A program made the translations under genes and the position numbers. The notes under the pieces were generated by a model. It was not told where the DNA came from, did not search any database, and saw only the letters and a list, made by a program, of their open reading frames with translations. DNA of 64,000 bases from Pseudoclavibacter chungangensis (GTDB lineage Bacteria > Actinomycetota > Actinomycetes > Actinomycetales > Microbacteriaceae): NCBI RefSeq assembly GCF_013410545.1, contig NZ_JACCFV010000001.1, forward strand, positions 2,604,001-2,668,000. The letters run 5' to 3'. Below, one piece after another: positions 24,113 through 26,181 of this stretch; position 1 is the first letter of the stretch; every line of letters starts with the position of its first letter.

Positions 24113-26181
24113 CACGCACCACCGCCCAAGACCGCGAGGCCACGGTGTCGGGCATCACAGTGTCTTAACCTCGGTGCCCGGCGACAGCTCGCGGAAAAGT
24201 TGCTCGGCGTTGATCCGCTCCGAATCCGACTTGAAGGCCGAGTCCCGGAAGACGGCTCGCAGTGGCTGACGCTTCGCGATCTCGGTGACCACATCAGCGG
24301 ACACCTCCTCGCTGAAGCACGCGATGAGCGCGTCGTCGGCGACGCGGAAGTACGTTGTGGGCGCGGCGCCGGCTCTCTCTCTCTCTCTCTCTCTCTCTCT
24401 CTCTCTCTCTCTCTCGAAACCTCACGTTCGATGGGCAGGCTCAAGTCGAGCCCCCAATCCAGGAGCACCTGGAAAAGCAAGTCTTCATCAGTGCGGTCCG
24501 GCTTCACGCTGTCGATCGCATCCAAGAGGTCTCCCTGGCCGAGCGCGTCGGCAGTCGTACTGGTCTCGGACATGTTTGTCGTGTCCACCCGGAGTGCTCG
24601 GAACCCGATGTCGAGGTTGGCGCCGACGAGGTCCGCGTCCTCACTCACCTTCATCGCGACCCGGCGCAAACGCTCACGGGAGACATCTGCGATGGTGGCG
24701 TACGTGGCGTGTTCGATCGGCTCGCCCAGCTGCACGAGGATGTACCGCCTGTGCCCGCCATCCCGAGCATTAAGATCCACAACCGCGTGACCCGTTGACC
24801 CGGAGCCTGCAAAGAAGTCAAGAACAAGCGCCTCGGGGTCGTTCTGCGTGACCAGACTGATCCAGCGTGCCAAGACTTGCTCGTCCTTTGGGTAGTCAAA
24901 GACCGACTCGCCTAGGAGTTGTGCGAGGCGGTTCGATGCGCTCCGCCGGTCTGCATAGAAGGTGGGCATCACGGTCTGCATGCTCGTCTCGTCGAGATAC
25001 CGCTTCATGGTCGGACGAGTCGTCTCATCCGGGCCAAACTTGACACGCCCCTCGGCGAGTAGACGCTTCATGTTCTCCGGCGCGTATGCCCACCCATTCG
25101 GGTGCATGTTCACAGGCTTGCCAGTCACGGGGTGGATGATGTCGTAACGCGACGTCGAGGTCGGCGCAGGTTTCCGCATGTTGTCGCCGAAGAACACCAC
25201 GCCCGGCCGCCCGTCTTCACCATCGACCTGGTTGTAGTGCTGGGACGCACGACGCGGGTCGTCAGAAGGCAACGACGCCCACCACTGGCGCAGCCGCCGA
25301 CTGGCCTCTTCCGGATCGTGTCCCGCGGCCTCCCACGCCGAACGCCCCGCCTCCAGGATCGAGTAGACGCCGGGCTTCGGCTCGCGCCATCGAACAGCAT
25401 CGAGCGCTGCCATGTCCCGTGCGTAGATCAACATGTAGTCGGTCGACGGCGAGAGGAACTGCGCGTCGTTCTTGCGCCCACCCTGCCAGACGACGTCGGC
25501 GATGAAGTTCTGCGCCCCGAAGGTCTGGTCCAGCAGGAGTCGCAGGTTGCCGTGTTCGCGGTCGTCGATTGCTGCGATCAGGAACCCATCCGGTGCCAGA
25601 AGGTTCCGCGCAAGCTGGAGCCTCGGCGCCATCATGCTGAGCCAGTCGGAGTGGAACCGTCCGTTCGTGTCGGGGTTTGAGCGCAGCCGCTCACCAGCGT
25701 CATTGATCTGGCCCGACTTTACGAGGTGCTCGTCCGCGCCCTCGGAGTAATCGTCGGGATACACGAACTCGTCGCTCCCCGTGTTGTAGGGCGGGTCGAT
25801 ATAGATGAGCTTGACCTTGCCGAGGTACGACTCCTGGAGGAGCTTCAACGCATCGAGGTTGTCCCCCTCGATGAAGAGGTTCTTCGTAGTGTCGAAGTCG
25901 ACCGACTCCTCGCGCACAGGCCGGAGCGTCTTGGCGATCGGGGCGTTCGCAGCGAAAGCGGCAGCACGCTTTCCGGGCCAGGCCAGCTGATACCGCTCCT
26001 GCGGTCCTTCGACGATGTGGTCGGTGAGCTCCTGACGGAGCAGATCGAAGTCGATCGCGCGCTGGGGGTTGCCGTCGGCGTCGACGGTTTCCGTCACGAC
26101 GCTTGGGAAGAGTTCGGCGATCTTGTCGATGTTCGCCTGGGTCAGGTCAGGCGAGTGCATCTTCAGCTTGTCCATCGTCAT
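24112..26181 (-). CDS. mod: Type III Mod-like methyltransferase with GA repeat tract (native C-terminus out of frame)
   Basis: 689 residues as it now reads. Motif IV DPPYNTG at 129-135 and motif I FAGSGS near 458 give the beta-class order, with a target-recognition region between. Residues 590-603 are seven Arg-Glu pairs encoded by a 43-nt GA tract. After it the frame reads a meaningless 86-residue tail and ends at 24112. In another frame the DNA encodes the native 72-residue end (FRVADDALIACF … RINAEQLFREL … EVKTL), clearly homologous to the second Mod, stopping at 24155-24157. One GA unit fewer (20) or two more (23) puts it in frame; 19 or 22 units give an early stop. The start ATG at 26181 has GAGG just upstream. 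This is a phase-variable gene now reading off-frame. Confidence 0.93.
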   Translation of the reverse strand: MTMDKLKMHSPDLTQANIDKIAELFPSVVTETVDADGNPQRAIDFDLLRQELTDHIVEGPQERYQLAWPGKRAAAFAANAPIAKTLRPVREESVDFDTTKNLFIEGDNLDALKLLQESYLGKVKLIYIDPPYNTGSDEFVYPDDYSEGADEHLVKSGQINDAGERLRSNPDTNGRFHSDWLSMMAPRLQLARNLLAPDGFLIAAIDDREHGNLRLLLDQTFGAQNFIADVVWQGGRKNDAQFLSPSTDYMLIYARDMAALDAVRWREPKPGVYSILEAGRSAWEAAGHDPEEASRRLRQWWASLPSDDPRRASQHYNQVDGEDGRPGVVFFGDNMRKPAPTSTSRYDIIHPVTGKPVNMHPNGWAYAPENMKRLLAEGRVKFGPDETTRPTMKRYLDETSMQTVMPTFYADRRSASNRLAQLLGESVFDYPKDEQVLARWISLVTQNDPEALVLDFFAGSGSTGHAVVDLNARDGGHRRYILVQLGEPIEHATYATIADVSRERLRRVAMKVSEDADLVGANLDIGFRALRVDTTNMSETSTTADALGQGDLLDAIDSVKPDRTDEDLLFQVLLDWGLDLSLPIEREVSREREREREREREREPAPRPQRTSASPTTRSSRASARRCPLMWSPRSRSVSHCEPSSGTRPSSRIRSGSTPSNFSASCRRAPRLRHCDARHRGLAVLGGGA
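24373..24415 (-). repeat. (GA)21 G simple sequence repeat inside the first mod gene
   Basis: 43 uninterrupted bases of CT on the plus strand, GA on the coding strand. It is the only microsatellite of this size in the window. It is expected to slip during replication and change the reading frame in 2-base steps. Confidence 0.98.

Follow-up and report, generated by a model that had tools for sequence, protein, structure and literature searches.

The window analysed here, a stretch of 64,000 nucleotides from the actinobacterium Pseudoclavibacter chungangensis, carries a type III-like restriction–modification (R-M) operon in which the first of two tandem methyltransferase genes, mod1, contains a long GA dinucleotide tract close to its 3′ end. 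Phase variation is well supported as the reading of this tract by comparison with related loci. We consider it probable, with modest confidence, that the tract acts as a slipped-strand switch which attaches or detaches the predicted Res-docking tail of Mod1, so that restriction at Mod1's own sites would be turned on and off while methylation likely continues. The features of the operon are listed in Table 1.

Table 1. Features of the operon, in window coordinates and in order of transcription
Feature	Position	Strand	Remarks
SNF2-family helicase, first gene of the conserved block	26840..30109	-	PADLOC C3a139 'HKD+Snf2'
DUF4391 protein, conserved operon member	26191..26847	-	PF14335 (E 2.4e-48); found in tandem loci
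mod1 body, type III-like N6-adenine methyltransferase	24416..26181	-	DPPY and FAGSGS motifs with target recognition domain (TRD) between
GA tract, (GA)21.5, 43 bp	24373..24415	-	at about codon 588 of mod1
Native Mod1 tail, about 72 residues, ...YFRVADDALIACFSEEV...SPGTEVKTL	24155..24372	-	stop at 24155-24157; out of frame now
Alternative-frame tail, the form encoded now	24112..24372	-	last base of its TGA is the first of the mod2 ATG
mod2, intact type III-like methyltransferase	22115..24112	-	GTG at 24115 as alternative start; no repeat reported
res, type III restriction subunit, SF2 helicase and endonuclease domain	19030..22110	-	PADLOC REase_III PDLC03647, PF19778, PF04851

The GA tract and the reading frames of mod1

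The tract is an unbroken run of CT on the plus strand and of GA on the coding strand, and both its length of 43 bases and its position agree exactly with the initial annotation of this DNA. As encoded, the open reading frame (ORF) at 24112-26181 on the minus strand reads through the tract and yields a Mod1 of 689 aa; apart from the shift at the tract, the mod1 body is open. It matched PF01555 (E 2.1e-23) and the PADLOC model MTase_III PDLC03634 (E 1.2e-186). The initial annotation had also proposed that a native C-terminus homologous to the sister Mod lies out of frame and that 20 or 23 repeat units would restore it. Both proposals hold: the native tail is 59% identical to residues 601-666 of Mod2 over 66 aa, and changing the tract length in silico to 41 or 47 bp brings it into frame (674 or 676 aa). 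Tracts of 45 or 39 bp lead to an earlier stop (629 or 627 aa).

We take the mod1 tract for more than a chance run: it is the sole GA run of 7.5 or more units in the single-contig genome of 3,985,007 bases, and such runs are rare in the order draw described below. The genome also contains two poly-G runs, G20 at G000:C1:1569047-1569066 and G10 at 2874657-2874666; they were considered as marks of further phase-variable genes and rejected, as no evident gene spans either.

Repeats in the first mod gene of tandem-mod loci

Genome contigs were scanned with six peptide patterns and the best 80 of 475 loci were analysed. One of the patterns was derived from the window's alternative-frame tail and the 80 loci are therefore enriched for relatives of that tail; the SNF2-based draws of genomes described below are free of this bias. 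Fifteen of the 80 loci carry tandem mods, and 65 were counted as single-Mod loci, including L078, truncated at the end of its contig. In 12/15 tandem loci the first mod carries, towards its C-terminus, a run of five or more dinucleotide units; the three others (L066, L083 and L096) are non-actinobacterial by title. Among the single-Mod loci a run was present only in L027, as an in-frame (CA)20 at 8099-8138 near the mod N-terminus. With the window included, 13/16 tandem and 1/65 single-Mod loci bear a run (Fisher test, p 2e-11, uncorrected for kinship and with the closely similar L054 and L055 counted separately). A/T runs of 8 in a mod of eight AT-rich single-Mod loci were not counted as repeats. 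L027, from a Cellulomonadaceae bin, is a member of this gene family with a classical on/off layout.

Later draws added two tandem loci with a repeat (L172, L176) and one without (L160, on a viral contig), resulting in repeats in 15/19 tandem loci; this tally omits the same-genome duplicates L130, L140, L141 and L175. All 15 repeats are located in the C-terminal domain of Mod1: 12 are long GA/TC runs (11-24 units), two have 5.5 units (L042, L059) and one is a G10. In the GA class (window, L040, L044, L045, L063, L176) ...DLSLPI and a few more residues stand before the run and [YI]FRVADDALIACFSEEV or similar stands after it. In the TC class (L038, L042, L054, L055, L057, L059, L075, L101) the run is shifted downstream by about 25 codons, with ...GALILCxRPREAR (or similar) before it and RAAAAIAERQPLRVVF after it. 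L172 has ten Gs at the GA site, in frame. Mod2 of these tandem loci contains no dinucleotide run of at least five units, as judged for L063 from the first 31 Mod2 residues, where its contig ends without a Res. Likewise, no GA/CT run of at least five units was found in any mod of 13 loci on viral contigs. A search of the plasmid database PLSDB gave four records, none covering 80% of the query, and among 10 genomes of the genus Mod2 matches were found in three besides the window's own, with 27-52% identity over parts and none of them close. In six loci of the TC class (L038, L042, L054, L055, L057, L101) mod2 and res are separated by about 1.8 kb, a stretch missing from the window.

An assembly artefact, on whose absence the initial annotation had made its reading depend, was rejected because the same gene part bears repeats in many independent assemblies, including the 3.65-Mb contig of G904 and the window's own single-contig genome.

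Whole genomes were also drawn, from the order, the family and the phylum. In the order draw a B(GA)10 run was present in 4/396 genomes, one apiece, and three of the four runs lie in Mod1 of the same operon and in the same part of the gene (G000, the window's genome, G243 and G097; the latter two are the genomes of L040 and L038). The SNF2 gene occurs in 18/396 genomes of this draw, with a long run in 3/4 tandem vs 0/10 single operons (p 0.011); the fourth tandem operon, in G310, has five units. G306, with two weak partial Mod matches, was left out of this count, as were G277 and G213, where no Mod was detected, and G226, because of a contig end. The family draw contained the SNF2 gene in 16/398 genomes and a repeat in 4/4 tandem vs 0/10 single operons (p 0.001), namely GA in G000, G808 and G904 and G10 in G918. 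Two genomes were not counted here: G1046, whose Mod is cut by the contig end with no run before it, and G954, in which neither DUF4391 nor a Mod was detected in the 1.5 kb up to the contig end. The two draws share G000, G134 and G106, and the Fisher tests ignore kinship. In the phylum draw 17 runs were found in 11 of 396 genomes, the window's own among them. Besides the window's own and the two methyltransferase-related ones described below, 14 lie elsewhere (at contig ends, in low-complexity sequence, in a reverse-transcriptase-like ORF and in ORFs with signal-peptide-like starts, among others); across the phylum, R-M genes are therefore not the only place where long GA runs occur.

The draws also brought up runs in other genes. 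The fourth run of the order draw, (TC)16 at 1489-1520 of L107 (G136), lies inside an MmeI-like methyltransferase ORF and perhaps represents a second kind of phase-variable R-M gene. Two 11.5-unit GA/CT runs of the phylum draw were found, on reading the translations by eye, in an HsdS-like ORF (L145, G607) and in an ORF for an NPPF-type DNA methyltransferase (L146, G749). G661 (L143, L152, L155-L157) and G608 (L150, L154) contain several GA/CT runs each, some of them at signal-peptide-like ORF starts, and these perhaps mark phase-variable surface proteins.

Conservation of the native tail and exchange of heads

The native tail is kept by purifying selection. In the native frame of the GA class, dN/dS ranges from 0.105 to 0.200 (five loci, ten pairs) and differences at codon positions 1/2/3 amount to 58/37/195. 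The corresponding numbers for the TC class are 67/80/219, with pairwise ratios of 0 to 0.45 (seven loci, 21 pairs). No such pattern was observed in the alternative frames, where pN >= pS in most pairs. The native C-terminal frame is hence conserved in homologs, a second point on which the initial annotation had made its reading depend.

Natural in-frame forms were found as well. When proteins were searched with the P0239 tail, 26/120 (the best 120 of 372 matches) had an in-frame (RE)n of 4-11 residues followed by the tail; the 26 include the query itself and four show only RERE. P0239 is an on-form, and the search favours on-forms for this reason. P0243 has nearly the window's own tract flanks, in frame. 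A search with an L054-type protein listed 120 matches, nine of which have (LS)n, each of them read in an alternative frame; such a frame is also what this query favours.

With P0001, a run-less Mod from Kocuria, window Mod1 shows 91.0% identity in the body but only 67.7% in the tail. Comparison with ten Mod1-type sequences (GA- or G-type sites) gave 45-60% identity for the bodies and 86-97% for the tails. We rejected Mod1 as one clade, since in a tree of 50 Mods (13 Mod1, 11 Mod2 and 26 single Mods) the Mod1 bodies are interleaved with single Mods. As tails are close while bodies diverge and form no clade, the repeat and the tail seem to be fixed to the first operon position while the recognition heads change.

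Differences in tract length and occupancy of the frames

L054 (Arthrobacter subterraneus) and L055 (from a Herbiconiux metagenome bin) are the same over 17.8 kb except for one single-nucleotide polymorphism and 8 bp in the tract. With 14 and 18 units, respectively, they differ by four units, and Mod1 is thereby in different off frames. As for a fixed number of units, the third point that the initial annotation had named as refuting its reading, the relatives differ from the window in unit number and include natural in-frame forms. Across the 15 repeat-bearing loci the native frame is open in three (L059, L063, L172), six are in the overlapping-stop frame (window, L044, L054, L075, L101, L176) and six in the third frame (L038, L040, L042, L045, L055, L057). 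Of the named isolates, Leucobacter chromiisoli (L059) is on at present, and Miniimonas arenae, Jonesia quinghaiensis and Gulosibacter macacae are off. The overlapping stop, TGATG or TAATG, is present at the mod2 start in 15/15 loci (L172 read by eye). The native-frame stop is located 27-81 nt upstream of the mod2 start, and the third-frame stop 49-181 nt upstream in 14/15 loci; in L075 it lies 8 nt past the mod2 start.

The fact that the native tail is off in 12/15 loci would fit decay, with the tract as a chance mutation in a second mod gene that is not needed. However, the purifying selection on the tail, the natural in-frame forms, the occurrence of three repeat types, among them the G10 at the GA site, within one domain and the open mod1 body in the window all speak against it, and we regard decay as disfavoured and very unlikely. 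The conserved overlapping stop, together with the six loci that sit in its frame, suggests another role, in which the three frames tune mod2 translation and the tract sets the Mod1:Mod2 ratio. But initiation alone may explain why the bases beside the mod2 start are kept, the alternative frames lack amino-acid conservation of their own, and the third frame of L075 ends beyond the mod2 start; we consider this explanation improbable. A further alternative is recoding, by which RNA polymerase or the ribosome would slip on the repeat and each cell would make both tails. RNA polymerase is known to slip on simple runs, and nothing computed here speaks against recoding outright. Near-identical loci differ in tract length, though, for which recoding has no need, and no single length is preferred; among the explanations weighed we give recoding the smallest chance.

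A proposed switch of Res docking

For the docking switch favoured here we propose the following steps. The tract would change its length by slippage during replication, presumably also in the window's strain. As the N-terminal domain and the methyltransferase motifs precede the tract, Mod1 without the tail would stay a folded, dimerising methyltransferase. The tract is located in the C-terminal domain, the domain that contacts Res in EcoP15I, and by analogy with the C-terminal domain of ModA in that enzyme the tail would be needed for holding Res. Mod2 and Res would be present whatever the state of Mod1; a switch that newly makes Mod1 would therefore risk cutting unmarked host sites, a risk that a switch of the docking tail would avoid. 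In addition, the frame with its stop on the mod2 start may tune Mod2 translation. The initial annotation had expected a changed methylome or restriction turned on and off; restriction is likely to be affected, through Res docking, and the methylome less so.

The strongest competitor is a classical phase-variable mod gene, where the frameshift destabilises or inactivates Mod1, methylation and restriction switch together, and gene expression may follow (a phasevarion). Such behaviour is established for repeat-bearing type III mod genes (PMC7394358 and PMC3498834), and the model of the off-form, disordered from about residue 534 and thus ahead of the tract, is consistent with it. On the other hand, the methyltransferase motifs and the N-terminus of Mod1 all lie upstream of the tract, unlike a layout with the repeat before the catalytic motifs. 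The repeat of MmyCI begins at nucleotide 320 of mod (PMC3498834), compared to about codon 588 here, and in L027, which alone among the single-Mod operons in the set of 80 carries a dinucleotide run, the repeat is close to the N-terminus. We hold the classical explanation to be possible but rather unlikely.

Several observations weigh against the docking switch. The off-form model loses order ahead of the tract (residues 534-560 and 562-595 below 50), so that the whole C-terminal domain, and perhaps the stability of Mod1, may suffer in the off-form, and methylation would then be lost too. On- and off-form models both have a predicted TM-score (pTM) of 0.56, the whole-chain root-mean-square deviation to EcoP15I is large, and the alignment ranges are end points only. 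The share of loci with the native tail off, 12/15, is somewhat above the 2/3 that would be expected if the three frames were equal. A repeat is not required by the tandem layout, since L066, L083, L096 and L160 are tandem loci that lack one. Finally, several loci come from draft or metagenome assemblies, of which L045 (Trueperaceae) and L055 (Herbiconiux) may be misbinned. Low predicted local distance difference test (pLDDT) values for an alternative-frame tail are to be expected in any case, because no homologs align there. In a structure search with Foldseek EcoP15I Mod ranked first, but its TM-scores reached only 0.39-0.40 because the domain arrangement differs.

If the docking switch is true, restriction alone would be gambled on: DNA would stay marked and only nuclease docking would switch. 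This would separate, in natural isolates, two proposed roles of phase-variable R-M, methylation-based regulation and the admission of foreign DNA, and would add Actinobacteria to the bacteria in which repeats switch a type III system. The family supplies natural controls in its on-forms, two off frames, G-tract form and repeat-less single-Mod forms. More tentatively, and with somewhat less confidence, we suggest that a three-state, restriction-only switch may be widespread in Actinobacteria, with a repeat-plus-tail module on swapped heads setting, through the length of its repeat, the recruitment of the shared Res by Mod1. A population would then sample restriction specificities with protective methylation kept and without self-cutting at re-activation.

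Operon and type of system

The genes are arranged in the order SNF2-DUF4391-Mod1-Mod2-Res on one strand (-), all of them open except for the shift at the tract, and res (end 22110) adjoins mod2 (ORF from 22115). REase_III covers residues 1-1024 of the 1026 of Res. PF01555 was found in both Mods, together with the layout of beta-class N6-adenine methyltransferases (DPPY before FxGxG, TRD between). The best match of Mod2 in the PDB is EcoP15I Mod (E 5.9e-74; E 1.3e-108 with a profile of 50 Mods). By the features tested, the window system is a member of the type III R-M systems. For none of the 10 neighbouring proteins scanned (15516-35998) was the top match DrmA or DrmB of DISARM. The SNF2 protein is similar to DrmD (E 1.5e-34; 146 bits against NF038317, whose cut-off is 610) and, more weakly, DrmA (E 7.6e-19). 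PglX and PglZ, the proteins expected for BREX or Pgl, were both absent from the listed matches of these 10 proteins (best 25 per protein); a weaker match of the SNF2 protein was to BrxHI (E 9.6e-26).

Directly downstream of res (17269-19023) the window encodes an OLD/GajA-like ATPase with a TOPRIM domain; L032 (Kocuria, 85%) and L091 (Tessaracoccus, 63%) also have a homolog of it after res. Upstream of the operon, 30430-37050 contains a TrwC-type relaxase, an HTH/rve transposase-like ORF and a weakly XerD-like ORF; judged by these genes, the surroundings are a mobile element context. The stretch 16179-16923 is 88% identical to one downstream of res in L054 and L055, pointing to a shared mobile segment.

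Comparison with known systems

According to the initial annotation, repeat-switched mod genes are established for Gram-negative host-adapted pathogens, with no described case known in this kind of actinobacterial island. The precedents do include those pathogens but extend to Mycoplasma (PMC3498834) and to pglX of Streptomyces, an actinobacterium (PMC4365076). In the parts of the open-licence literature covered, neither a repeat at the C-terminal end of a type III mod nor such an actinobacterial operon was found, although the survey by Atack (2018) may list some of the genes; the main text of a 2026 review (PMC13076061), as far as covered, gave no match for Actinobacteria, Actinomycetota or Streptomyces.

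The closest precedent by repeat is MmyCI of Mycoplasma mycoides subsp. capri, a type III mod that is off and inactive with AG12 and on and active with AG10 in a progeny clone; a stop follows its repeat at once, and runs of other lengths occur in related species (PMC3498834). Both systems carry an AG/GA dinucleotide run in a type III mod whose length sets the frame. In contrast to MmyCI, the window tract is situated in the C-terminal domain, past the methyltransferase motifs, and in the first of two mods. Repeats are present in 17.4% of the type III mod genes in REBASE, as cited in PMC7394358, and the mod phasevarions of Haemophilus, Neisseria, Helicobacter and Moraxella cited there resemble the window system in having simple repeats in mod ORFs and frame switching. 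The window system differs from these in its actinobacterial hosts, tandem mods and C-terminal site. The Pgl system of Streptomyces coelicolor, which phase-varies via a G tract in pglX, is a further parallel, as a simple repeat changes in a phage-defence methyltransferase gene of an actinobacterium (PMC4365076); PglX, however, works with PglW, PglY and PglZ, its repeat is a homopolymer of G and there is no type III Res. With EcoP15I (Mod2Res1; 4zcf; PMC4490356) the window system shares the Mod and Res families and a C-terminal domain at the same end of Mod. EcoP15I contains a homodimer of one Mod, in contrast to the two tandem Mods in the window. To our knowledge it has no repeat and no SNF2 or DUF4391 partner. 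Judged from the loci compared here, the C-terminal site of the repeat, the tandem layout and the hosts are what differs from known phase-variable mods.
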